A stretch of 64,000 nucleotides of DNA from Actibacterium sp. MT2.3-13A (GTDB taxonomy: Bacteria > Pseudomonadota > Alphaproteobacteria > Rhodobacterales > Rhodobacteraceae), in assembly GCF_018139985.1 (NCBI RefSeq), contig NZ_JAGSOU010000014.1, forward strand, positions 1 to 64,000. Direction: 5' to 3'. Made by a program: the position numbers and the translations under genes. Position 1 is the first letter of the stretch. Each line of letters begins with the position of its first letter. A model generated the notes under the pieces. It did no database searches and was not told where the DNA came from. It was given only the letters and a program-made list of their open reading frames with translations. This document shows, one piece after another, positions 2 to 14,224 of the stretch.

Positions 2-157
2 GCGCGCGACATGCACGGCGGCAACGGGATCTCCGAGGAGTTCCAGGTCATCCGCCACATGCTGAACCTGGAGACCGTGAACACCTACGAGGGCACCCAC
101 GACGTGCACGCCCTCATCCTCGGCCGAGCCCAGACCGGCCTGCAGGCGTTCTTCTGA
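2..157 (+). CDS. gcdH: Glutaryl-CoA dehydrogenase, C-terminal fragment (5' end outside window)
   Basis: This is the last 51 codons of an acyl-CoA dehydrogenase read in frame from base 2. The fragment contains the C-terminal helices of the family with [11 protein letters not shown] followed by [18 protein letters not shown], a tail typical of glutaryl-CoA dehydrogenase; the TYEGTHDVH stretch contacts FAD and substrate in this group. The enzyme oxidises and decarboxylates glutaryl-CoA to crotonyl-CoA in lysine and tryptophan breakdown, passing electrons to electron-transfer flavoprotein. The catalytic base and the N-terminal domains lie upstream of the window. A hairpin terminator follows directly, so it is not co-transcribed with the glycosyltransferase genes. 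Assignment to glutaryl-CoA rather than another acyl-CoA substrate is by recognition of the tail only. Confidence 0.85.
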
Positions 158-334: not shown

Positions 335-1369
335 ATGCGCATAACCGCCGTGACCTGTGTGAAGAACGAGGGCCCCTTCCTGCTGGAATGGATCGCCTTC
401 AACCGCATGATCGGGGTGAGCGATCACCTGTTCTATTCCAACGACTGCACGGACGGCACCGACGCGTTGCTGGATGCGCTGGCCGCGCGCGGGCTGGTCA
501 CGCATCTGCCCAACCCGGCGCAGGGGCGCAACTACCAGATGGAGGCGCTGAAGGACGCCGGCCGCCAGCCGCTGGTGCGCGAGTCCGACTGGGTCTGGAT
601 CGCCGATGTGGACGAGTTCCTGAACATCCGTGTGGGACAGGGCACCATCCCCGAGCTTATCGCGGCCTGCGGCAACCCGCAGGCGATTTCCGTGACCTTC
701 CAGTTCTTCGCCAATGGCGGGGTCGAGGACTACGCCGACCGCCCGGTGATCGGACAGTTCACCCGCAGCCACAATCCCGACCTGTGGACCGACCAGACCG
801 CGCAGGAGGTCAAGACCCTGACCCGCCGCGATTTCCCGCTGCACTATTACGGCGCGCACCGCCCCTTCTTCCGCGAGAGCCTGCCGCCCGAGCGGCAACC
901 GGCCTGGACCGACGGGTCGGGCCGCGAGGTTCCGCCGAAGTTCAGGACCGCCGCCAACAAGCGCCGCCTGCGCAAGTTCCCGGCCGCCGGGGCGCGCCGG
1001 TTCGCGACGCTGAACCACTACGCGCTGCGCTCGCTCGACAGCTATCTCGTCAAGAACGACCGCGGCGACGTGAACCGCGAGAACCGCAGTTTCGACGACA
1101 GCTATTGGCGCGAGCGCAATGACGGCGCGTGGGAGGACCTCTCGATCCAGCGCCACCTGCCGGGGCTGGAGGCGGCGCTGGCCGCGCTGAAATCCGACCC
1201 CGAGATCGCGGCGCTGCACGCGGCCAGCGTCGCTGCCCACCGCGCCACCCTGGCGCGGTTGATGCAGGACCCCGACTACCGCGCCCTGCGCGACCGGCTG
1301 CGCGCCGCGCCGACGCTGCCCCCGCAGGAACTGAAGCTGCTGGAGATGATCGGGGGCGCGCATGGCTGA
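335..1369 (+). CDS. Family 2 glycosyltransferase (KNEG / DVDEF type)
   Basis: Predicted inverting glycosyltransferase of 344 residues in the GT-A fold, of the Pfam Glyco_tranf_2_4 type. Near the N-terminus it has VKNEGPFLLEW (residues 9-19) and SNDCTDGTD (35-43), the nucleotide-sugar binding half. DVDEF at 91-95 is the probable metal-binding DxD motif. No signal peptide or membrane segment is seen, so it probably acts in the cytoplasm. The ATG at 335 is preferred over a TTG at 314 because the protein then begins directly with the conserved strand MRITAVTCVKNEG and a purine-rich AGGGGCGG lies just upstream. The next gene overlaps its end by 8 bp. Close paralogues are the C-terminal domain encoded at 2003-4336 and the protein at 5050-6093. 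Donor and acceptor sugars cannot be inferred. Confidence 0.85.
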   Translation: MRITAVTCVKNEGPFLLEWIAFNRMIGVSDHLFYSNDCTDGTDALLDALAARGLVTHLPNPAQGRNYQMEALKDAGRQPLVRESDWVWIADVDEFLNIRVGQGTIPELIAACGNPQAISVTFQFFANGGVEDYADRPVIGQFTRSHNPDLWTDQTAQEVKTLTRRDFPLHYYGAHRPFFRESLPPERQPAWTDGSGREVPPKFRTAANKRRLRKFPAAGARRFATLNHYALRSLDSYLVKNDRGDVNRENRSFDDSYWRERNDGAWEDLSIQRHLPGLEAALAALKSDPEIAALHAASVAAHRATLARLMQDPDYRALRDRLRAAPTLPPQELKLLEMIGGAHG

Positions 1370-2003
1370 ACTGAAGGTCGTCAATCTAGGCCTGCCGAAA
1401 TCGGGCACCACGACCCTGGGCGAGGCGCTGCGCCGCGCCGGCCTGCGCGTGGCCGACTGGCGCATCCGGGCGGGCCAGAGCGCGGATAACCGCCTCAACC
1501 GCGCCTTCGTGGGCAAGCTGATGTATCAGGGCTATTTCGAAACCGGCGATCCGCTGTCCCTGATGCCCGAATTCGACGCCTTCACCGAGATCGACATCGT
1601 CCGCCAGGGCCTCAACCTCTGGCCGCAGACCGACTGGGGGCTGATCGCAGCGATCCGCGCGCATCACCCCGGGGCGCGCTTCATCCTCACCCACCGCGAC
1701 CCGGCGAAGCTGAGCGACAGCATGGGGCGTTGGTCCAACCTCGGCAAGACGCGCCTGCCCGGCAACGCCATCCCCGGCCTGCCGCAAGGCTATGGCGCGA
1801 CCGATGCCGAGCGCATCCGCTGGATCGAGGGGCATTACGCCTTCTGCCGCAGGGTGTTCGAGGGGGCCGCGGATTTCCTCGAATACGATGTCGCGGACGC
1901 GGAGGCGCCGGCGCGCATCGGCGATTTCCTCGGGATCGCCCTGCCGTGGTGGGGCGTGGCCAATGCCAACGCCAACCGCCCGGCCGAAGGGGGCGATTGC
2001 TGA
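1362..2003 (+). CDS. Sulfotransferase family protein
   Basis: A 213-residue protein starting with the PAPS-binding 5'-phosphosulfate loop LPKSGTT (residues 11-17), where Lys and the Thr residues contact the donor phosphosulfate. Downstream ARFILTHRDP fits the 3'-phosphate-binding strand and helix of sulfotransferases. Such enzymes move sulfate from PAPS to hydroxyl or amino groups of carbohydrates or other acceptors. It is shorter than many relatives (about 250-300 residues) but appears complete. The start overlaps the preceding glycosyltransferase and its TGA overlaps the ATG of the next gene, so the three are translationally coupled. The context suggests sulfation of a glycan made by the neighbouring transferases; the acceptor is unknown. 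Confidence 0.8.
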   Translation: MAELKVVNLGLPKSGTTTLGEALRRAGLRVADWRIRAGQSADNRLNRAFVGKLMYQGYFETGDPLSLMPEFDAFTEIDIVRQGLNLWPQTDWGLIAAIRAHHPGARFILTHRDPAKLSDSMGRWSNLGKTRLPGNAIPGLPQGYGATDAERIRWIEGHYAFCRRVFEGAADFLEYDVADAEAPARIGDFLGIALPWWGVANANANRPAEGGDC

Positions 2004-4336
2004 TGGAACTGATCGTGCATATCGGCCTGCCCTATTGCGGCGCGGAACGCCTCCAACAGGTGCTGGACGACAAGCGTGACCAGCTGGCGGGCAAGGGCGT
2101 GCTCTATCCCCGCGCGCCGGGGCGCCGGAACCACACCCGCCTCTACATGGCCGCGACCGACCCCGATCACGTCGATCCGCTGCGGCTGAACCGCGGCTTT
2201 GGCGATCCCGCGGATCAGGCCCGCCTGCGCGAGGACCTGATCCGCGATCTGCGGCGCGAGATCGACGGCGCGCAGCCGGAAAAGATCCTCCTGTCGGCCC
2301 ATCAGCTCGCCACCGGCCTGCACCGCAGCTCCGAGCTGGAGCGGCTGAAGGCGATGCTCGACCCGCTGGCCGGCAAGATCACCCTCCTCGCCCATATCGA
2401 CGAGCAGGCCCGGATGCTGGCCGCCCATTACACCGAGCAGGTCTGGTCCGGGCGCGGCCGCTCGCTGGAACATGAGCTGGCGCTGGCGGAGGAAGAGGAC
2501 TGGTGGGGCAGCGCGCTGGAGGAATGGGACGAAATCGACCCCGCGCGCAACCGGATGCCCGAGGTTCAGGCGCCCCCCTTCTGGCTGGACTACGCGGCGC
2601 TGCAACGGCATTGGGAGGGGGTGTTCGGCGCGGGCAGCCTCACCTTCCGCCCCTATGACAAGGCGCTGTTCGACAGCGAGGCGCTGACCGCGGAACTCTC
2701 CGACGCCTTCGGCCTGCCGCGCAATATCGGCAAGGCGGCGGCGGCGCGGAAAACCCGCCCCATGCCGGCCGCCTGGCTGACCCGCGGGCGGCTGCTGAAC
2801 GCGGATCTGGTCAAGCTTCTGGACACCGGGCGCGTCATCCCGCGCAAGCTGTGGCGGCAGCTGATCGCGGATGTGGCCGTGGACGGCCCGCCGCTGGAAC
2901 CGGGTCGCCTCCACGCCATCTCGGAGCGTTTCGCAGCCGGGAACGCGCGCCTGATCAAGGCCCACCCGGCGCTGAGCGCGCGGGCCCTCGCCCCCGACGC
3001 GCCGCAAGACGACTGGGCCGAGGCCGACCCAAAATTCGGCTTCCGCGCGTCGCAATACCTCGCCGCCTTCCTGCCCCGGATCGAGCGGGCCACGCGCGAG
3101 GCGCAGGAGGCGGGCCGGGCCGATGCGCCCGCGGCCGACACCTCCGCGGGCCTCTCGCCGGTTGCCGAGAACCTGCTGCCGCCGCTGGCCAAGGCCAATT
3201 TCGCCCGGCTGCGCAGCAGCCCCTTCGCGCCGCATAACCGCCTCGGCGCGGCGGACGAGGAGACCCCCGCCCCGCCCTACACCCACGCGCCCGCCCGCGC
3301 CCTGCCCGCCGGCAGCAGCGGCAACGTCATCGTCGGCTGCATGAAGAACGAGGGCCCCTATATCCTCGAATGGGTCGCCTATCACCGCGCCGTGGGCATC
3401 GACAATTTCCTGATCTACACCAATGGCTGCGAGGACGGCACGGCCGAGCTCCTCGACCGGCTGCAGGAGATGGGCGTCCTCCAGCACCGCAACAACGACG
3501 ACTGGAAGGGCAACTCGCCCCAGCAACACGCGCTGAACCGCGCGCTGAAGGAGGACGTGATCCGCAACGCCGAATGGATCGCCCATATCGACGTGGACGA
3601 GTTCATCAATGTGCGCTGCGGCAACGGCACGCTTTACGATTTCTTCGACCGGGTGCCGCAGGCCACCAACGTGGCGATGACCTGGCGGCTGTTCGGCCAT
3701 AACGGCGTGCGCGAGATCAGCGACGATCTGGTGATCGAACAGTTCGACAGCTGCGCCCCGAAATTCTGCCCCAAGCCGCACACCGTCTGGGGCTTCAAGA
3801 CCATGTTCCGCAACATCGGGGCCTACGGCAAGATGAGTTGCCACCGGCCGAACAAGCTGGACGAGGCCCTGCGCGACCGGGTGCAGTGGGTGAACGGCTC
3901 GGGACAACCGATGGGCGAGGAGGTGAAGGAAAACGGCTGGCGCAACTCGCAGCGCTCGATCGGCTACGACCTGATCCAGCTCAACCATTACGCGCTGCGC
4001 TCGGCCGAGAGCTTTCTCATCAAGCGCCAGCGCGGGCGGGCGCTGCATGTCGACCGCTCGATCGGGCTGAATTACTGGATCCGCATGGATTGGGGCGACC
4101 ACAGGGACATCACGATCCAGCGCAACGTGCCGCGCACGCGCGCCGGGATGACGCGGCTGCTGGCCGACGACAGGCTGCGCGCGCTGCACGAAGGCGCGCT
4201 GTGCTGGCACCGCGACAAGGCCGCCAGCCTGCGCGCCAATCCCGAATTCCGCGATCTCTACGAACAGGCGCTGGCAGCCCGGCTGACCAGCACGGAACGG
4301 GTGGCCTACGCGCTGGCGCTGGACATGGAGAACTGA
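2003..4336 (+). CDS. Fusion protein: sulfotransferase-like N-terminal domain plus family 2 glycosyltransferase
   Basis: A 777-residue two-domain protein. Residues 1 to about 270 resemble the sulfotransferase-like fold (LIVHIGLP start, later LTFRPYDKALFDSEAL), but the phosphosulfate loop reads LPYCGAE instead of PKTGTT, so the key Lys and Thr are missing and sulfuryl transfer is doubtful. A poorly conserved linker rich in Ala, Pro and Arg runs to about residue 435. From there a KNEG-type glycosyltransferase domain begins (CMKNEGPYILEW) with DVDEF near residue 530, closely similar to the proteins at 335-1369 and 5050-6093. The ATG at 2003 overlaps the upstream stop codon (TGATG), which fixes the start although the open frame extends further upstream. 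The glycosyltransferase half is expected to be active; the N-terminal half may only bind or scaffold. Confidence 0.8.
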   Translation: MELIVHIGLPYCGAERLQQVLDDKRDQLAGKGVLYPRAPGRRNHTRLYMAATDPDHVDPLRLNRGFGDPADQARLREDLIRDLRREIDGAQPEKILLSAHQLATGLHRSSELERLKAMLDPLAGKITLLAHIDEQARMLAAHYTEQVWSGRGRSLEHELALAEEEDWWGSALEEWDEIDPARNRMPEVQAPPFWLDYAALQRHWEGVFGAGSLTFRPYDKALFDSEALTAELSDAFGLPRNIGKAAAARKTRPMPAAWLTRGRLLNADLVKLLDTGRVIPRKLWRQLIADVAVDGPPLEPGRLHAISERFAAGNARLIKAHPALSARALAPDAPQDDWAEADPKFGFRASQYLAAFLPRIERATREAQEAGRADAPAADTSAGLSPVAENLLPPLAKANFARLRSSPFAPHNRLGAADEETPAPPYTHAPARALPAGSSGNVIVGCMKNEGPYILEWVAYHRAVGIDNFLIYTNGCEDGTAELLDRLQEMGVLQHRNNDDWKGNSPQQHALNRALKEDVIRNAEWIAHIDVDEFINVRCGNGTLYDFFDRVPQATNVAMTWRLFGHNGVREISDDLVIEQFDSCAPKFCPKPHTVWGFKTMFRNIGAYGKMSCHRPNKLDEALRDRVQWVNGSGQPMGEEVKENGWRNSQRSIGYDLIQLNHYALRSAESFLIKRQRGRALHVDRSIGLNYWIRMDWGDHRDITIQRNVPRTRAGMTRLLADDRLRALHEGALCWHRDKAASLRANPEFRDLYEQALAARLTSTERVAYALALDMEN

Positions 4337-4339
4337 GCG

Positions 4340-5047
4340 ATGAATACCCCGCAAGGCACGGATAACACGCCGAAATTCATCCGCTCCCGCGGGCTGAAAT
4401 TCCCCTACGATCCGCGCGTGATCGACCGCAAGCGGCGCAAGCTGCTGCATGACGACGCCTATGAAAAGAAGGAATCCGAGGCCGTGCTGCGTCAGATCAG
4501 GCCGCAGGACACGGTGCTCGAACTGGGCGCGGGCATGGGCTACATGTCCACCCTGATGGCCAGGAAGCTGGGCGTGAGACATGTCCATGCCTTCGAGGCC
4601 AACCCGGCGATGATCCCCTATATCCGCGCGGTCCACGCCGCCAACGGGGTGGAGGACGTGACCGTGCACAACGCCCTGCTGGGGGCGGAGGAAGGCGAGG
4701 TCACCTTCTATGTGCGCGGCGATTTCGTGGCCTCCTCGATGGAGGACAACCTGGGCGAGAAACACGGCGGCGTCATCGCGCGCGAAACCGTGCCGGTGCG
4801 CCCCGTCGCGCAGGTGATGGACGAGATCAAGCCCACCGCGCTGGTCTGCGACATCGAGGGGGCGGAGGCCGACTTGCTGCCGCTGATGGACCTCGGCGCC
4901 ATCCGCGTGGCGATCATCGAACTGCACCCGCAGGTCTTCGGCCAGGCCGGCACGGCGAAGGTCTTTGCCGCGATGGCGGCGGCGGGGCTGACCTATTTCC
5001 CGCGCGCCTCCAACGCCAAGGTCGTGACCTTCCGGCGGGACTGGTAG
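4340..5047 (+). CDS. FkbM family SAM-dependent methyltransferase
   Basis: A 235-residue methyltransferase. Motif I is VLELGAGMG (residues 59-67), followed by an acidic residue at the end of strand two (HAFEANP) that would bind the ribose of S-adenosylmethionine. Later VCDIEGAEADLLPL matches the FkbM signature around the DIEG strand. FkbM proteins usually O-methylate sugars or small molecules, so methylation of a residue on the glycan made by this cluster is the likely role. The gene starts 3 bases after the fusion gene and ends 2 bases before the next glycosyltransferase, so it belongs to the same transcription unit. The first 45 residues are basic and lack an obvious domain. Confidence 0.85.
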   Translation: MNTPQGTDNTPKFIRSRGLKFPYDPRVIDRKRRKLLHDDAYEKKESEAVLRQIRPQDTVLELGAGMGYMSTLMARKLGVRHVHAFEANPAMIPYIRAVHAANGVEDVTVHNALLGAEEGEVTFYVRGDFVASSMEDNLGEKHGGVIARETVPVRPVAQVMDEIKPTALVCDIEGAEADLLPLMDLGAIRVAIIELHPQVFGQAGTAKVFAAMAAAGLTYFPRASNAKVVTFRRDW

Positions 5048-5049
5048 AC

Positions 5050-6093
5050 ATGCGCGCGCTGGCCGTCCTGACCGTCCGCAACGAGGGCGCCTTCCTGCTG
5101 GAATGGCTGGCCCATCACCGGGCCGTGGGATTCACCGATTTCCTCGTCTTTTCCAACGATTGCGACGACGGCACCGACGCCATCCTCGACCGCCTGCAAC
5201 AGCTCGGCCAGCTGACCCATGTGCGCAACGACGGCCCGCATGAGGGCGGCGTGCAATGGGCGGCGCTGAAACGCGCCGACGGGCACGATCTGGTGCGGCA
5301 GGCCGACTGGATACTGCCGCTGGACGTGGACGAATTCGTCAATATCCATGTTGGCGACCATAGCCTTTCGGCGCTTTTCGACGCCCTGCCCGGGGCCACG
5401 GCGGTCACGCTGACATGGCGGCTGTTCGGCAATGGCGGCATCGTCCATTTCGAGGACCGCCCCATCTGCGACCAGTTCCTCCGCGCGGCGCCGGCGATCC
5501 TCTACTGGCCGTGGCGGGCGGCGATGTTCAAAACGCTCTACCGCAACGATGGGACCTACCGGAAACTCGGCGTGCACCGCCCGCGCAGCCCGGTGCCCGA
5601 GAGGCTGGAACAGGCGCGCTGGTTCGACGGCTCGGGCCGCGAACTGCCCGAGACGTTCCGCAAGACCCGGCTGTTCTCGAATTACGGGCAGGACAATTAC
5701 CAGCTGGTGCAACTCAACCATTACCCGCTGGGCGCGATGGAGAGCTACATCCTCAAGGCAGACCGGGGCCGCGCCGTGCATGACGGGCATGATCTGGGCA
5801 TGGATTACTGGGTCGAGCGGAACTACATTACCGACGAAGACCGCAGCATCGCGGCGCTGAAACCGGCGCGCGACGCGATCCTGGCGGAGTTGCGGAGCGA
5901 CCCCGAACTCGACGCGCTGCACCGCCGCGCGGCGGGCTGGCGCAAGACCCGCTTCGCCGATTTGATGGAGCAGGAGCCGTTGCGCGCGCTCTTCGGCCGG
6001 CTGCTGGTCACACCGCCCTCGCGGCCCGTGCCCCTGAACGCGGCGCGGTTCCTGGCGGGGTTCGCCAACCGGGCGCGCAGGAATTCCGACTAG
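5050..6093 (+). CDS. Family 2 glycosyltransferase (KNEG / DVDEF type), third paralogue
   Basis: A 347-residue GT-A glycosyltransferase, paralogous to the proteins at 335-1369 and in the C-terminal half of 2003-4336. It has VRNEGAFLLEW (9-19), SNDCDDGTD (35-43) and DVDEF (92-96), with the later conserved blocks TLTWRLFGNGG and QLNHYPLGAMESYILK that all three copies share. Three copies in one operon suggest sequential addition of different sugars, or of the same sugar to different positions. It is the last gene of the tight cluster; an 8-bp hairpin spans its stop codon. No membrane segment or signal peptide is seen. Substrates are unknown. Confidence 0.85.
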   Translation: MRALAVLTVRNEGAFLLEWLAHHRAVGFTDFLVFSNDCDDGTDAILDRLQQLGQLTHVRNDGPHEGGVQWAALKRADGHDLVRQADWILPLDVDEFVNIHVGDHSLSALFDALPGATAVTLTWRLFGNGGIVHFEDRPICDQFLRAAPAILYWPWRAAMFKTLYRNDGTYRKLGVHRPRSPVPERLEQARWFDGSGRELPETFRKTRLFSNYGQDNYQLVQLNHYPLGAMESYILKADRGRAVHDGHDLGMDYWVERNYITDEDRSIAALKPARDAILAELRSDPELDALHRRAAGWRKTRFADLMEQEPLRALFGRLLVTPPSRPVPLNAARFLAGFANRARRNSD

Positions 6094-6200: not shown

Positions 6201-7169
6201 ATGCACACCGGCAGTGGCACAGAGCACAGCGAAGAACACTCCGCATGGTATGCCCGGATGGCCGCCGTCGGCGACGAGCAGGGCCGCTTCGAACGTCTCG
6301 GCCCCGATCACGCGGCGCTGTTCATCGAGCAGGCGCCGACCCTGCTCGTCACTTTCGAAAGCGCTGACACGATCCGAAACACCCGGATGGACCAGATGCC
6401 GCTGGCCGCCACCCTGGTGGACGAGGCCGGCTGGTCGCAACTGACCCTCATGGCCGAGGGCGAGACTTGGTTCCGCGATCCGGCCGTCTATGCCTTCTTC
6501 GACCGGCTGGTCGACGAGGCGTTTTTCGAGGATTTCGACCGCGTGGTGTTCTACGGCGCGGATATGGGCGGCTATGCGGCGGCGGCCTTCTCGGTGGCGG
6601 CACCCGGCGCCACGGTGATCGCGCTGGCCCCGCAGGCCACGCTGGACCCGCGGGTGTGCGAATGGGACGATCGCTTCTTCGCCTATCGCCGGCTGAATTT
6701 CTCGGACCGCTACGGCTACGCCCCCGACATGATCGATGCGGCCGAGCGCGCCTATATCCTCTACGATCCGCAGAACCCGCTCGACGCGATGCACGCGGCG
6801 CTGTTCACCCGCGCCAACGCGGTCAAGCTGCGCTGCCGCCATTTCGGCGCGACGCTGGAGACCGACCTGCTGAACATGGGCGTTCTGACCGAGCTGATCG
6901 ACGCCGCCTGCGAGGGCCAGATGTCGCCGCGGGTCTTCCACCAGCTTCTGCGCGCGCGCCGCGACTACCTGCCTTACCTGCGCCACCTGCTGGTGCATCT
7001 GGAGCGCTCGGAGCGGCCCTACCTCGCCGCCCTGCTGTGCCGCAGCGCGATCAAGCGCACCTCGCGCCCGCGCTTCCGCAAGCGGCTCGAAGAGCTGAAG
7101 GCGATGCTGGCCGAAGAGGGCCACGCCCTGCCGCCCGAACCGGCGCCAGAGCCGGCGGAAGTGGAGTAA
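6201..7169 (+). CDS. Conserved protein, alpha/beta-hydrolase-like, function unknown
   Basis: A 322-residue protein that I recognise as a family common in Rhodobacteraceae. I believe relatives often carry the database name phosphoadenosine phosphosulfate reductase, but no PP-loop or active-site Cys motif of that enzyme is visible. What can be seen is VVFYGADMGGYAAAAFS at about 115-131: a beta strand, a G-x-D-x-G-G turn and a small-residue helix, like the nucleophile elbow of alpha/beta hydrolases with Asp in the nucleophile place. The C-terminus is rich in Arg, then Pro and Glu. The ATG at 6201 is chosen because an AAGGAAGGGG stretch lies upstream. It lies 107 bases after the glycan cluster in the same direction and converges on ureG, whose 3' end is 3 bases away. 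Confidence 0.6.
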   Translation: MHTGSGTEHSEEHSAWYARMAAVGDEQGRFERLGPDHAALFIEQAPTLLVTFESADTIRNTRMDQMPLAATLVDEAGWSQLTLMAEGETWFRDPAVYAFFDRLVDEAFFEDFDRVVFYGADMGGYAAAAFSVAAPGATVIALAPQATLDPRVCEWDDRFFAYRRLNFSDRYGYAPDMIDAAERAYILYDPQNPLDAMHAALFTRANAVKLRCRHFGATLETDLLNMGVLTELIDAACEGQMSPRVFHQLLRARRDYLPYLRHLLVHLERSERPYLAALLCRSAIKRTSRPRFRKRLEELKAMLAEEGHALPPEPAPEPAEVE

Positions 7170-7172
7170 GCC

Positions 7173-7784
7173 TCAGAGCCCGCCTTCGGCGATCAGGAAG
7201 GCGACGATCTCGTCCACGCCCTGCCCCGATTTCAGCGCCGCCATCACCACCGGCCGCGCCCCGCGCGCCGCGCGCGCGTCACGTTCCAGCAACGCGCGAT
7301 CCACGCCCACATAGGGCGCGAGATCGGTCTTGTTGACCACCAGCAGGTCGCTGCGCGTCACCCCCGGCCCCTTCTTGCGCGGGATATCCTGCCCGGCCGC
7401 CGTGTCGATGACGTAGAGCGTCAGATCGGCCAGTTCCGGGCTGAAGGTGGCGGCCAGGTTGTCGCCGCCGGATTCGATGAAGATCACGTCGAGATCGGGG
7501 ATGCGTTCGCGGAACGCCGCCACCTCGGCGAGGTTGATCGAGGCATCCTCGCGGATCGCGGTATGCGGGCAGCCGCCCGTTTCCACCCCCTTGATCCGTT
7601 CCAGCGGCAGCACCTGCGCGCGCATCAGGTATTCGGCATCCTCCGACGTGTAGATGTCGTTGGTGATGACCGCGATGGAATAGCGATCCGCCATCGCGCG
7701 GCACAGCTGTTCGGTCAGCGTGGTCTTGCCGGCGCCCACCGGGCCGCCGATGCCCACCCGCAGGGGGCCGTTCGGGCTGCTCAT
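7173..7784 (-). CDS. ureG: Urease accessory protein UreG (GTPase)
   Basis: A 203-residue SIMIBI-class GTPase that powers nickel delivery to urease. Visible motifs are the P-loop [11 protein letters not shown] (from residue 13), the Walker B region FIESGGDNL, the metal-binding GGCPHTA whose Cys and His hold nickel at the dimer interface, and the guanine-specificity motif NKTD. Length is normal. The ATG overlaps the ureF stop codon (ATGA), so it is coupled to ureF, and it is the last gene of the operon. It converges on the plus-strand gene ending at 7169. Confidence 0.97.
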
Positions 7785-8407
7785 GTCCTGAAGATCCTCA
7801 CGTCCAGGGTTTCGTGGCGCATCGCGGCGAGATCGGCGCCGAATGCGGCGCTGCCGATCTGGTCGAGCGGCGTGTCCACCGCCCGCGCGGCCACCGTTTC
7901 GATCACCTTGTGCAGGCGCGAAAGCACCTGCTGGCCCTCGTTCTGGCCCAGCGGCACGAAACGCACCGCGGCCGAGACGAGGTTGGAGGCGAAACCATGC
8001 AGGTAAAGCGCCGCCACCTGCCCGGGCGGCAGGCTCAGCCGCCGCGCGGCCACGCCCACCGCCACCGGCAGGGGCATCGGCGGCAGCGCCTCGCCGTAGA
8101 GCGCGTTCACCGTGGCGACGAAGGCCGCGCCCTGTTTGTCGGTCTCTTCCAGCCGCTCACGCGAGACGGCGAGCGCGCGGGCGGTGTCGGCGACCTCATC
8201 GCCCGCCAGCGCCCGGCACAGCAGCACCGCGTCCACCGCGCCGCTGCCCTGCTCCAGCACCAGCCGCAGCCAGCGCTCCAGCGTGGCCGCGTCGCGCACG
8301 TCGCCGTCGCAGATCGCCTGCTCCAGCCCGTGCGAATAGGCGAAGGCCCCCACCGGGAAGGCCGGCGAGAGCCATTGCGTCAGGGTCAGAAGGTCGGCCG
8401 CGCTCAT
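7781..8407 (-). CDS. ureF: Urease accessory protein UreF
   Basis: A 208-residue all-helical protein that forms the UreF-UreD-UreG complex on apo-urease and regulates the UreG GTPase. The N-terminal [20 protein letters not shown] is the typical UreF opening, and SHGLEQAI follows. Length fits the family. It overlaps ureE by 4 bases upstream and ureG by 4 bases downstream, as usual for urease accessory genes. Confidence 0.95.
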
Positions 8408-8958
8408 GCCTCGTCGATCACGGACGGACCGCGCGGTTCTTCCTCGCCCTCGTCTTCGATATGCTTGTGGTCGGCGTGGTGATGCACATGGCCATGCACA
8501 TGGCCGTGCTCGTGGCCCAGGGTGCGGCCGTGGCCATAGGCGCCGCCCTCTGGCGCGAAGGGGGCAGAGACCTCGGCCACGCCCGCGCCAAGCTGGCGCA
8601 GCATCTCGGCCATCACCGGGTCGCGCTGGATCAGCAGCCGGTCGTCCTCGATCTGGCAGGGGGCGTGGCGGTTGCCGATATGCCAGGCGAAGCGCACCAG
8701 GTCGCGCCCCGTGATCTCCAGCAGGTCGTCCTCGCCCGCCTCGACCTCGATCAGCCGGCCATCCTCCAGCTCCAAAGCCTCGCCACCCTTCAGCGAGACG
8801 GTCTCGGGCAGATCGGCGAGAAAGCTGTCGCCGCCCGCCGTTTTCAGGCGCTTGCGGCGCAGGAGCCGCTCGTCATAACTCAGGACGACGCGGTCGTGGG
8901 GCCTGCCGCCCCCGGTCGAGGGCAAAAGGCGCAGGGCTTTTCCAAGGTCGGCGGGCAT
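8404..8958 (-). CDS. ureE: Urease accessory protein UreE (nickel metallochaperone)
   Basis: A 184-residue nickel-binding chaperone that hands Ni(II) to UreG. The N-terminal half has the UreE peptide-binding domain (RLKTAGGDSFLADLP), the middle has the metal-binding domain (AWHIGNRHAP, where His binds nickel at the dimer interface), and the last 40 residues contain a His-rich stretch (GHEHGHVHGHVHHHADHKH) for nickel storage. The ATG at 8958 is preferred over one 11 codons upstream because GGAGAG lies 8 bases before it. It is coupled to ureF by a 4-base overlap. Confidence 0.93.
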   Translation of the reverse strand: MPADLGKALRLLPSTGGGRPHDRVVLSYDERLLRRKRLKTAGGDSFLADLPETVSLKGGEALELEDGRLIEVEAGEDDLLEITGRDLVRFAWHIGNRHAPCQIEDDRLLIQRDPVMAEMLRQLGAGVAEVSAPFAPEGGAYGHGRTLGHEHGHVHGHVHHHADHKHIEDEGEEEPRGPSVIDEA

Positions 8959-9024
8959 GTCGGTTCTCTCCGCTCGGGGCACATGCTGCAAGCATAGCCG
9001 CGCCGTGCCCCGGGCGAAAGGGAA

Positions 9025-9243
9025 TCACATGCCGTAGAGGTCTTTGAAGACGTGGTGCACGATATCTTCGCGCGCGATGCCCAGCTTGGCGAGCTGCTCA
9101 TCGTTCATGGCCTGCAGGCGCTGGACGCGCTGAAGGCGGCTGTTGTTCTCCATCAGATACACCAGGAACCGGCCAATGGCGCGGAAAGGTGCGGAGAGAC
9201 GGATCCCGAGGCTTGCTGCGGGGATATGAGTCGTTACGGCCAT
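9025..9243 (-). CDS. DUF1127 domain protein
   Basis: A 72-residue protein ending in a DUF1127-type helix pair: LQAMNDEQLAKLGIAREDI with downstream aromatic and hydrophobic residues. DUF1127 proteins are small and Arg-rich, and members in alphaproteobacteria have been linked to RNA metabolism and to phosphate or carbon regulation. No such role can be read here. AAAGGAG lies 8 bases upstream of the ATG at 9243, a stronger ribosome site than most neighbours, and marks this start over longer in-frame alternatives. It sits between ureC and ureE on the same strand with 140 bases to ureC, so it may be transcribed with the urease operon or from its own promoter in that gap. Confidence 0.85.
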   Translation of the reverse strand: MAVTTHIPAASLGIRLSAPFRAIGRFLVYLMENNSRLQRVQRLQAMNDEQLAKLGIAREDIVHHVFKDLYGM

Positions 9244-9383
9244 TTTGGAAACTCCTTTTGCTGGCGCAAAGCGTTTCCTCCCTGACACCGAAGATAGGTC
9301 AGCAATCCCGCCCTTTCCATTGCGTTTTTCGCAACCCCGCCCTGCGTTATCGCCGCGGCGCGGCATGACGGGCGGGGGTTGCG

Positions 9384-11093
9384 TCAGAACAGAAAATAGC
9401 GTTGCGCCATCGGCAGTTCGCTGGCCGGCGCGCAGGTCAGCAATTCGCCGTTGGCGCGCACCTCGTAGGTTTCGGGGTTCACCTCGATATGCGGCGTGGC
9501 GGCGTTCATCACCATGTCGGCCTTGCCGATGGCGCGGGTGTTCTCAACCGCCACCGTCCGCTTGGCCAGCCCCAGCGCGGCGCCCACTCCCCCGGCCTGG
9601 GCCGCGGCCGAGACGAACAGCACGGCCGAATTCTCCACCGCCCGGCCGAAGGCGCCGAACATGGGGCGCGAATAGACCGGCTGCGGCGTGGGAATCGAGG
9701 CGTTGGGGTCGCCCATCTGCGCCATGACGATCATGCCGCCGATCAGCACCATCTCGGGCTTCACCCCGAAAAACGCCGGGCGCCACAGCACCAGATCGGC
9801 GCGCTTGCCCGCCTCGACCGATCCGATCTCGCGGCTCATGCCGTGGGCGATGGCCGGGTTGATGGTGTATTTGGCGATGTAGCGCTTGACCCGGACGTTG
9901 TCGTTGTCGCCGGTCTCCTCGGCCAGGCGGCCGCGCTGCTGCTTCATCTTGTGGGCGGTCTGCCAGGTGCGGATCAGCACCTCGCCCACCCGGCCCATGG
10001 CCTGGCTGTCGCTGGCGATGATGGAAAACGCGCCCATGTCGTGCAGGATGTCCTCGGCCGCGATGGTCTCGCGCCGGATGCGGCTCTCGGCGAAGGCCAC
10101 GTCCTCGGGGATCGCCTTGTCGAGGTGATGGCAGACCATGAGCATGTCCAGATGCTCCTCGATCGTGTTCACCGTGTAGGGCCGCGTCGGGTTGGTGGAA
10201 CTGGGCAGGACGTGGGATTCGCCCACCACCTTGATGATGTCGGGGGCATGCCCGCCGCCCGCGCCCTCGGTGTGGAAGGCATGGATGGTGCGGCCCTTCA
10301 TGGCGGCCACGGTGTTCTCGACGAAGCCGGATTCGTTCAGCGTGTCGGTGTGGATCATCACCTGCACATCCATGTCGTCGGCCACGCCCAGGCAGCAGTC
10401 GATCGCGCCGGGCGTGGTGCCCCAATCCTCATGCAGCTTCAGCGCGCAGGCCCCGGCCCGGACCTGCTCCTCCAGCGCGGCGGGGCGCGAGGCGTTGCCC
10501 TTGCCCGCGAAGGCGAGGTTCATCGGGAGGGCATCGGCCGCCTGCAGCATCCGCCCGATATGCCAAGGCCCCGGCGTGCAGGTGGTGGCGAGCGTGCCAT
10601 GCGCGGGTCCGGTGCCGCCGCCCAGCATGGTGGTCACGCCGGAATGCAGCGCATCCTCGATCTGCTGCGGGCAGATGTAATGGATGTGGCTGTCGAAGCC
10701 GCCGGCGGTCAGGATGCGGCCTTCGCCCGCGATGACCTCGGTGCCGGGGCCGATGACGATATCGACGCCCGGCTGGGTGTCGGGGTTGCCCGCCTTGCCG
10801 ATCCGCGCGATCCGCCCGTCGCGCAGCGCCACATCGGCCTTTACGATGCCGGTGACGTCGAGGATCAGCGCGTTGGTGATCACCGTGTCGGCGGCGCCGT
10901 CCGCCCGTGTCGCCTGGCTCTGCCCCATGCCGTCGCGTATCACCTTGCCACCGCCGAATTTTACCTCTTCCCCGTAACTTGTGAGGTCTTCTTCAACCTC
11001 TATGACAAGATCGGTATCGGCCAGGCGCACACGGTCCCCGGTGGTCGGGCCATACATGTCGGCATAGGTCGCGCGGGAGATGCGGGCGGGCAT
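9384..11093 (-). CDS. ureC: Urease alpha subunit
   Basis: The 569-residue catalytic subunit of nickel urease, which hydrolyses urea to ammonia and carbamate in the cytoplasm. Seen motifs: [10 protein letters not shown] (two nickel-binding His), [10 protein letters not shown] (the Lys that becomes carbamylated and bridges both nickels), [24 protein letters not shown] (nickel-binding His) and [13 protein letters not shown], the mobile active-site flap with its Cys and His. Length matches the family and no residue appears missing. It is separated from ureB by a small gene of unknown function. Confidence 0.98.
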
Positions 11094-11099
11094 GGGTGA

Positions 11100-11384
11100 T
11101 CAGTCCTCGGTCCTGAAAGGCTGGGCCGGTCTGGCCTGGGCGCGCCGGCGGCGCGGGGCGGGTTTGGCGGCACGCGCCGCGCCGGGCCTGGCCGCGGCTT
11201 TCGGGGCGGCATGCGGCGCCGAAAGCGCCTCGGTGTCCACCGCCGGCAGGAACGGGTTGAGCCGCAGAGCAGCGCCGAACCAGGCCGTGGCCATGGCCAT
11301 CTGCATCTCGAACAGACGCGCCCAAACCTGAATCGGCATGGCGCCGGAGACGTCGCAAGGCGGGTGCTTCAGAGGGGTCGACAT
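11100..11384 (-). CDS. Small hypothetical protein between ureB and ureC
   Basis: A 94-residue protein I do not recognise. The first half contains an amphipathic helix (WARLFEMQMAMATAWFGAALR, split by hydrophobic residues). The second half is Ala, Arg, Pro and Lys rich and probably disordered. AGGGAA lies 9 bases before the ATG at 11384, preferred over an ATG six codons upstream. It ends 6 bases before ureC and starts 27 bases after ureB, so it is within the operon. The helix followed by a basic Ala/Pro tail is loosely reminiscent of phasin-like proteins, but that is weak. A real gene is likely because it keeps an open frame and spacing inside a tight operon. Confidence 0.6.
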   Translation of the reverse strand: MSTPLKHPPCDVSGAMPIQVWARLFEMQMAMATAWFGAALRLNPFLPAVDTEALSAPHAAPKAAARPGAARAAKPAPRRRRAQARPAQPFRTED

Positions 11385-11411
11385 TTCGAATTTCCCTTTC
11401 ATGATAATAAC

Positions 11412-11717
11412 CTAAAGTTCACCCATAACCTTCTGGTTGAAGCCGTATATCCGCCGCATACCGGCAACGGGCACCAGGTCCACGTCCCGGCTCTGTCCGG
11501 GTTCGAACCGCACCGCGGTGCCTGCGGCGATGTCCAGCCGCATCCCGCGCGCGGCCTCGCGATCGAAATCGAGCGCCGCGTTGGTCTCGGCGAAATGATA
11601 ATGGCTGCCGACCTGCACCGGCCGGTCGCCGGTGTTGGCGACGCGCAGCGTGATCGCCTCGCGGCCTGCGTTCAGCGTGATCTCGCCGGGACGGGGGAAG
11701 ATTTCGCCGGGTATCAT
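11412..11717 (-). CDS. ureB: Urease beta subunit
   Basis: A 101-residue structural subunit of urease that packs against the alpha subunit. The start [20 protein letters not shown] and the core [15 protein letters not shown] are hallmarks of UreB. Separate ureA and ureB genes are the usual bacterial arrangement. It begins 10 bases after ureA and is preceded by a GAGAGAG ribosome site. Confidence 0.97.
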
Positions 11718-13079: not shown

Positions 13080-14120
13080 ATGACACAGAGCCTCACCCTC
13101 CGCCGCCCCGACGACTGGCACCTGCACCTGCGCGACGGCGCCATGCTGCAGGGCGTGCTGCCCGAAAGCGCCCGCCATTTCGCCCGCGCCATCATCATGC
13201 CCAACCTGGTGCCGCCGGTGGTCACCGCCGCCGACGCCGCCGCCTATCGCGACCGGATTCTCGCCGCCCTGCCCGAGGGCGCCGGTTTCACCCCGCTGAT
13301 GACCCTCTACCTGACCGAGGAGACCGATCCCGAGGATCTCGCCGCGGCCCATGCCAGCGGACTGATCACCGCGGTCAAGCTCTACCCGGCGGGCGCCACC
13401 ACCAACTCGGCCTCGGGGGTGCGCGATTTCGACAAGGTGCGCGGCGTGCTCGAGAAGATGGCCGAGATCGGTTGCCCGCTCTGCGTGCACGGCGAGGTGA
13501 CCGACCCCGAGATCGACATCTTCGACCGCGAGGCGGTGTTCATCGACCGCGTGCTCGACCCGGTGCGCCGCGCCACCCCCGGCCTGCGCGTGGTGATGGA
13601 GCACCTGACCACCGCCGACGGCGTCGCCTATGTGCAGGCCCACGACCGGGATCTGGCGGCCACGATCACCACCCATCACCTGATCATCAACCGCAACCAC
13701 ATCCTGGTCGGCGGCATCAAGCCGCATTACTACTGCCTGCCGGTGGCCAAGCGCGAAAACCACCGCCTAGCGCTGGTCGGGGCCGCCACCGGCGGAGACG
13801 CGCGGTTCTTCCTCGGCACCGACAGCGCGCCGCACACGGACGCCAACAAGCAAAGCGCCTGCGGCTGCGCGGGCTGCTTCACCGCCACCAACACGATGAG
13901 CTGCCTGGCCGAGGTGTTCGAGCGCGAGGGCGCGCTGGACAGGCTGGAGGGCTTCGCCTCGCTCCACGGCCCGGCCTTCTACCGGCTGCCGCCAAACGAG
14001 GAACGGATCACGCTCGTCAAGGGCGCACCCGTCCACTACCCGGCCAAGATCCTGACCGGCGCGGGCCCCGTGACCCTGTTCGACCCCGGCTTTCCGCTGC
14101 ATTGGCGGGTCGCCGAATGA
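13080..14120 (+). CDS. pyrC: Dihydroorotase
   Basis: A 346-residue class II (E. coli PyrC-like) dihydroorotase that cyclises carbamoyl aspartate to dihydroorotate in pyrimidine synthesis. WHLHLRDG (residues 13-20) carries the two zinc-binding His. [14 protein letters not shown] near residue 99 carries the carbamylated Lys, [10 protein letters not shown] gives another metal-binding His, and GTDSAPH carries the catalytic Asp. The length is typical. No clear Shine-Dalgarno sequence precedes the ATG. The next pathway gene present, pyrE, follows after a palindromic repeat element. Confidence 0.97.
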
Positions 14121-14125
14121 CGCCC

Positions 14126-14224
14126 CTTCTTCTTGGCGGAAATACTCCCGCCGGAGGCATGAAAGTTTCGGCCCCGCCGCGCGGGGCCGATGCCTCCGGC
14201 GGGGATATTTATTGCCAGAAGAAA
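14126..14224. repeat. Nested palindromic repeat element between pyrC and pyrE
   Basis: Two opposed copies of the same unit (14126-14160 reverse, 14190-14224 forward; shared core GCCTCCGGCGGGGATATTT then GCCAGAAGAA) flank a 9-bp hairpin (CGGCCCCGC with GCGGGGCCG, 14169-14189). The whole can fold as a long cruciform-like stem. A third copy of the unit is at 29007-29039. It behaves like a REP-type intergenic element and may also end or attenuate pyrC transcription. Confidence 0.85.

Follow-up and report, generated by a model that had tools for sequence, protein, structure and literature searches.

A gene order of glycosyltransferase (A), sulfotransferase (B), sulfotransferase-like domain fused to glycosyltransferase (C), FkbM methyltransferase (D, not always present), glycosyltransferase (E) and a further protein (F) recurs on a single strand at about 80 loci in the Rhodobacteraceae, and this unit is best interpreted as a small, still unproven pathway for a sulfated glycan. 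The enzymes are of known kinds; in the literature searched, their conserved combination, in which two catalytic folds have degenerated, appears to be undescribed. We found no paper there describing the unit, in agreement with the initial annotation, which knew of no named pathway with this gene set. Experimental work on its members was likewise not encountered. The unit lies near the start of the window, a stretch of 64,000 nucleotides from Actibacterium sp. MT2.3-13A (Table 1).

Table 1. Positions of the six-gene unit and its flanking genes in the window
Feature	Positions	Strand	Basis or remark
gcdH C-terminal end (glutaryl-CoA dehydrogenase)	2..157	+	Left flank, outside unit; name is a reading of the sequence
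Gene A: soluble GT-A-type glycosyltransferase (Glyco_tranf_2_4/GT92-like), DVDEF intact	335..1369	+	Pfam PF13704 9.2e-18
Gene B: PAPS-dependent sulfotransferase (Sulfotransfer_4), intact 5'-PSB loop	1362..2003	+	Pfam PF17784 1.6e-9
Gene C N-terminal domain: sulfotransferase fold, probable pseudo-sulfotransferase	2003..3200	+	AlphaFold2 and fold match
Gene C C-terminal domain: glycosyltransferase (Glyco_tranf_2_4), DVDEF intact	3287..4336	+	Pfam PF13704 2.7e-23
Gene D: FkbM-family SAM methyltransferase, optional in unit	4340..5047	+	PF05050 4.1e-9, TIGR01444 6.8e-18
Gene E: glycosyltransferase (Glyco_tranf_2_4), DVDEF intact	5050..6093	+	PF13704 4.2e-22
Gene F: alpha/beta-hydrolase-fold protein, nucleophile serine replaced	6201..7169 (longest frame from 6138)	+	AlphaFold2, synteny
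Urease genes ureG, F, E, C, B	7173..11717	-	Right flank, outside unit; names are readings of the sequence

The initial annotation described five closely packed genes, A to E, and both their coordinates and the Pfam domains of all five bear this out: A and B overlap by 8 nt and B and C by 1 nt, with gaps of 3 nt between C (2003-4336 over its whole span) and D and of 2 nt between D and E. It overlooked the sixth member, gene F, which follows E in most loci and for which a start at 6201 is preferred over 6138 because orthologues begin there. The stretch begins at a contig end; since the C-terminus of gcdH occupies its first bases, the left edge of the pathway is intact and no gene is cut off. The same gcdH tail adjoins the slot in four other loci (L055, L057, L068 and L089). 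Beyond the urease genes lie pyrC at 13080 and pyrE at 14190, both named from a reading of the sequence.

Neighbourhoods were collected by tblastn, first from other genera and then as 80 named loci from GTDB genomes, and the order A-B-C-(D)-E-F in about 80 of them upholds the expectation of linkage across Rhodobacteraceae. By title or placement, the best 80 loci all belong to the Rhodobacterales; in a sample of 24 genomes representing other families of the class, gene C had no match. Among the 65 loci with long flanks, C is present in all 65, A and E in 64 each, B in 61, F in 58 and D in 33. Dozens of genera share this order, a recurrence that cannot be due to chance. In total 66 of 246 genera carry the unit, about a quarter of Rhodobacteraceae genera. 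Its usual slot has a MoxR/VWA gene pair on one side and pyrC-pyrE-dnaB-alr on the other (names again read from the sequences). In Actibacterium, including the stretch studied here, gcdH lies to its left and the urease genes to its right, the latter flank being found also in Actibacterium loci L066 and L068, and in a few genomes the unit is placed elsewhere, still among housekeeping genes.

Flanking open reading frames were compared all-against-all on 27 loci. No flippase, polymerase or export gene was seen within the unit or in the contexts inspected, where the flanking frames read as housekeeping genes, and the earlier remark that such genes are absent thus extends to the whole unit. Nor did a capsule or LPS locus surround the unit in any context inspected. 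Scattering of the genes in relatives and membership of a known capsule or LPS locus were the two findings that the initial annotation held to be fatal to its interpretation; linkage and housekeeping flanks were found instead.

Two kinds of partial locus bear on how the unit was built. In L055 (5114-7462) and L057 (6250-8605) the slot holds gcdH-E-F without A-D, followed in L057 by the urease genes, and in L040, L043 and L046 E-F is located behind a different glycosyltransferase. The unit therefore seems to consist of an older core, E-F, and a second module, A-D.

The glycosyltransferase domains of A, C and E match Glyco_tranf_2_4 with 65, 82.7 and 78.9 bits, respectively, against a cut-off of 27.5. 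Their DxD metal/nucleotide-sugar motif (DVDEF) is intact, with D91/D93/E94 of A kept in 100% of 90 rows, D92/D94/E95 of E likewise kept in 100%, and D530/D532/E533 of C invariant. The three domains had been called closely similar; they are paralogous, but share only 33-41% pairwise identity. A tree of 89 domains (quick search), of the kind proposed in the initial annotation, places A, C and E each on one side of a branch (SH-aLRT 100, 100 and 94, respectively), recovering three paralogous lineages that are old and divergent rather than close copies. Because each forms a single clade, the paralogues predate the spread of the genera and are not interchangeable. As judged from their sequences, A, C and E are three old one-to-one orthologous glycosyltransferase lineages, which may correspond to three distinct transfer steps.

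Gene B has the features of an active sulfotransferase family member, matching PF17784 with 38.4 bits (cut-off 22.8). Its 5'-PSB loop reads LGLPKSGTTT, and K13, G15, T16, R112 and S120, corresponding to the PAPS-loop Lys/Gly/Thr and the 3'-phosphate Arg/Ser, are present in 81/81 rows. An APS kinase is present in the host genome (G000:C48). Across the 246 genera, the N-terminal domain of C occurs in 66 and B in 63, with both in 61, C alone in 5, B alone in 2 and neither in 178 (Fisher p 4e-49, genera being counted as independent and phylogeny ignored). In four genomes (G005, G065, G068 and G154) B is distant from the unit or on another contig, with A and C still adjacent, and its retention after relocation argues that B is kept for function and is not just hitch-hiking. 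A further candidate for relocation, G092, was set aside, its contigs being short and ending there. Given that B keeps the PAPS-binding residues and co-occurs with C, sulfation is credible.

The initial annotation had envisaged a product both sulfated and methylated, and it is the second half of this claim that needs amending: going by gene content, methylation is optional for the pathway, as D is present in 33 of the 65 full-flank loci. The assignment of D as an FkbM methyltransferase was itself correct, with matches to PF05050 (Methyltransf_21/FkbM; 37.2 bits) and TIGR01444 (65.5 bits) and with the SAM motif I glycines G63, G65 and G67 in 54/54 rows. One genome, G027, carries A-C-E-F without B and without a convincing APS kinase, possibly reflecting a joint loss of sulfation. 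Joint loss of B and APS kinase has little power as a test of sulfation, APS kinase being near-universal in the family and kept by other genomes that lack B.

Two sulfotransferase-like domains had been recognised from the sequence. The PAPS residues of B are kept and the N-terminal domain of C (residues 1 to about 370) does have the fold, but the latter lacks the PAPS motifs. Its AlphaFold2 model (pLDDT 92.8) matches 3rnl best, at Z 15.7 (rmsd 3.8, 237 aligned), and heparan 3-OST at Z about 14. The fold is thus common to heparan sulfate 3-O-sulfotransferase/NDST and the bacterial 3rnl (Z 14 to 15.7); unlike these, the domain has neither the PAPS loop nor the 3'-phosphate Arg and Ser, and it is fused to a glycosyltransferase. 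The loop equivalent to the PSB reads mostly HIG(L/P)xxxGAxR, without the 5'-PSB Lys and Ser/Thr, and the stretch expected to hold the 3'-PB reads mostly AHxDExARxL, without Arg and Ser. None of the Pfam sulfotransferase families matched the domain in any of 44 orthologues. Its link to B is one of fold, as sequence kinship between the two is undetectable by profile comparison (0.3% probability). The model and the motif state together suggest that the domain is probably non-catalytic, and we infer a glycan-binding role for it, leaving a little room for an unusual sulfotransferase mechanism that dispenses with the canonical loop.

Gene F presents a comparable case. Its AlphaFold2 model (pLDDT 84.6) has an alpha/beta-hydrolase fold with 212 PDB matches at E <= 0.001, the best 50 of which re-scored at Z 11.7 to 13.9. 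The nearest are 6oyc_B (Z 13.9), which is Gap2/Asp2 from the Gap123 complex of S. agalactiae, and 6yus (Z 13.1), a Neisseria capsule O-acetyltransferase; with many esterases within 1-2 Z units, the modelled likeness to Gap2/Asp2 is a hint only. F shares its fold with the Gap2/Asp2 member of the Asp1-2-3/Gap123 complex and with the Neisseria enzyme and travels with glycosyltransferases, but within the unit it has lost the nucleophile serine, and sequence identity is about 12%. No SecA2/SecY2, Asp1, Asp3 or SRR adhesin was seen in the gene neighbourhoods of F. The nucleophile elbow falls at position 121, flanked by strand 114-120 and helix 122-133. Among 95 rows, 78 have Gly at this position, 13 Ser, 3 Asp and 1 Asn, so that most depart from the GxSxG nucleophile motif. 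All 13 Ser copies come from loci without the six-gene unit; copies inside the unit have Gly, or Asp as in the stretch studied here. Asp acts as the nucleophile in some alpha/beta hydrolases. On this structural reading F is probably non-catalytic, with activity conceivable for the studied copy and its Asp. Neither F nor the N-terminal domain of C reaches a Pfam cut-off, and PDB sequence searches with these two, B and the glycosyltransferase set returned nothing useful.

F-like domains also occur on plasmids. On two from Paracoccus (L147, 7923-9563; L148, 6588-8828) they lie within longer proteins annotated as sulfotransferases or glycosyltransferases and near glf, GT2, GT61 and more glycosyltransferase genes; the overlap with such annotations is consistent with a glycan-related role of F. 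On a Thioclava plasmid (L146, 7977-8909) an F-like protein stands beside a gene of the formylglycine-generating-enzyme family and near a sulfatase-like gene. The annotation of this protein as a phosphoadenosine phosphosulfate reductase is contradicted by the alpha/beta-hydrolase fold found for F.

Our tentatively preferred reading is that the unit forms a self-contained cytosolic glycan-tailoring operon, which would build a sulfated, sometimes methylated short oligosaccharide on a lipid-linked envelope glycan. Hydropathy reveals no clear membrane helix in any of the six proteins (maximum 19-aa mean 1.63). Acting one after another, A, C and E would extend a lipid-linked acceptor, located on the cytoplasmic side of the inner membrane, by up to three sugars. 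B would transfer a single sulfate, taken from PAPS, and D would carry out O-methylation in those units that have it. The N-terminal domain of C, as a dead sulfotransferase fold, and F, as a dead acyltransferase/hydrolase fold, may serve as non-catalytic glycan-binding or assembly modules, and export of the product would fall to housekeeping envelope machinery whose genes lie elsewhere. As acceptor, the LPS core (lipid A-Kdo, with MsbA as its flippase) would be the likeliest, an identification that is itself rather doubtful. MsbA-type flipping of the LPS core is established for that pathway, and such an acceptor would account for the absence of flippase, polymerase and export genes from the unit. 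Since only 66 of 246 genera have the unit, it cannot build a universal core. GtrOC3, a Glyco_tranf_2_4 member, belongs to the LOS outer-core locus of Acinetobacter (PMC10327509), so a glycosyltransferase Pfam family is common to the unit and an LOS/LPS outer-core locus; in contrast to core loci, the unit has no genes for lipid A, Kdo or heptose in its vicinity, and it adds a sulfotransferase and F.

It is also conceivable, although unlikely, that the unit modifies the repeat unit of a capsular or exopolysaccharide, or provides part of it, with polymerisation and export left to Wzx, Wzy and Wza encoded elsewhere in the genome. Wza-type Poly_export genes were present in 56/56 cluster genomes checked, the F-like domains occurring with glf, GT2 and GT61 on the Paracoccus plasmids fit such a setting, and sulfated bacterial exopolysaccharides with sulfotransferases are known, as in the synechan xss cluster (PMC8205485). 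Like the unit, synechan xss of Synechocystis and the sulfated CPS clusters of Vibrio KMM 8419 and Cobetia combine glycosyltransferases with PAPS-type sulfotransferases. However, xss has its own Wzx, Wzy and co-polymerase (PMC8205485), whereas the unit has none of these and in the contexts inspected never adjoins polymerase, flippase or export genes. The unit is also smaller than the sulfated EPS/CPS clusters, has a degenerate sulfotransferase fused to a glycosyltransferase, and keeps to a conserved housekeeping slot unlike the variable capsule loci. The GTA-receptor capsule genes rcc01081-86 of R. capsulatus were considered as relatives and dropped, the portion of the source text searched naming no glycosyltransferase or sulfotransferase among them.

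Two other products are improbable. The lack of an export gene, the marine origin of many hosts and the linkage of a sulfotransferase to glycosyltransferases would suit a stand-alone sulfated glycolipid, or else a small oligosaccharide that is soluble and serves as osmolyte or signal; yet the unit has no lipid-anchoring gene, and three glycosyltransferases with two accessory domains suggest a larger acceptor. Slightly less credible is a system that, in the manner of other cytosolic ones, would O-glycosylate a protein, for instance flagellin, with sulfated glycans, and in which F would play an Asp2/Gap2-like part. All six proteins look soluble, the top structural match of F is Gap2/Asp2 of Gap123 (Z 13.9), and the export role of Asp2 survives loss of its catalytic triad (PMC5578698). 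Against this, many esterases match the fold of F almost equally well, no gene for a candidate acceptor protein, SecA2 or an adhesin was seen beside the unit, and a flagellin match is absent from 9/56 cluster genomes, which counts against flagellin as a general acceptor. The flagellin and Wza counts narrow the acceptor only a little, since presence of Wza in 56/56 genomes does not discriminate. That unrelated neighbours are held together by chance or local inheritance is very improbable, for even though the linkage is largely vertical inheritance within one family and its counts are non-independent, the block as a whole is found in several different housekeeping slots, and B persists in genomes where it has moved away.

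If the unit is indeed a tailoring operon for a lipid-linked envelope glycan, about a quarter of the genera of a major marine bacterial family would make an uncharacterised sulfated glycan, with a bearing on surface charge, on phage and GTA adsorption and on interaction with algae. Two domain families outside Pfam coverage would be defined, and two catalytic folds would have been kept after loss of their catalytic residues. We would go further only speculatively, and with low expectation, in positing that the N-terminal domain of C and F are conserved pseudoenzymes that form a scaffold with the three glycosyltransferases and B, a Gram-negative counterpart in principle of Asp1-2-3/Gap123 that would serve to make a sulfated surface glycan of Rhodobacteraceae not known before.

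Variants of gene C were also encountered. In L036 (7886-10268; genome G009) its sulfotransferase-like and glycosyltransferase parts lie in two overlapping frames, owing to either a split gene or a frameshift. Five loci (L041, L042, L043, L046 and L047, at about 6700-10300) encode relatives of about 760-820 aa whose GT2_4 C-terminal domain is 46-50% identical to that of C and whose own conserved N-terminal domain has no detected similarity to the sulfotransferase-like domain. A suggestion made by eye, that this N-terminal domain in the proteins of about 780 aa is a degenerate glycosyltransferase, was unsupported by profile comparison (2.7%). An F-like gene is often found near these C-like proteins, with its serine intact in GASMGG or GASMGA.
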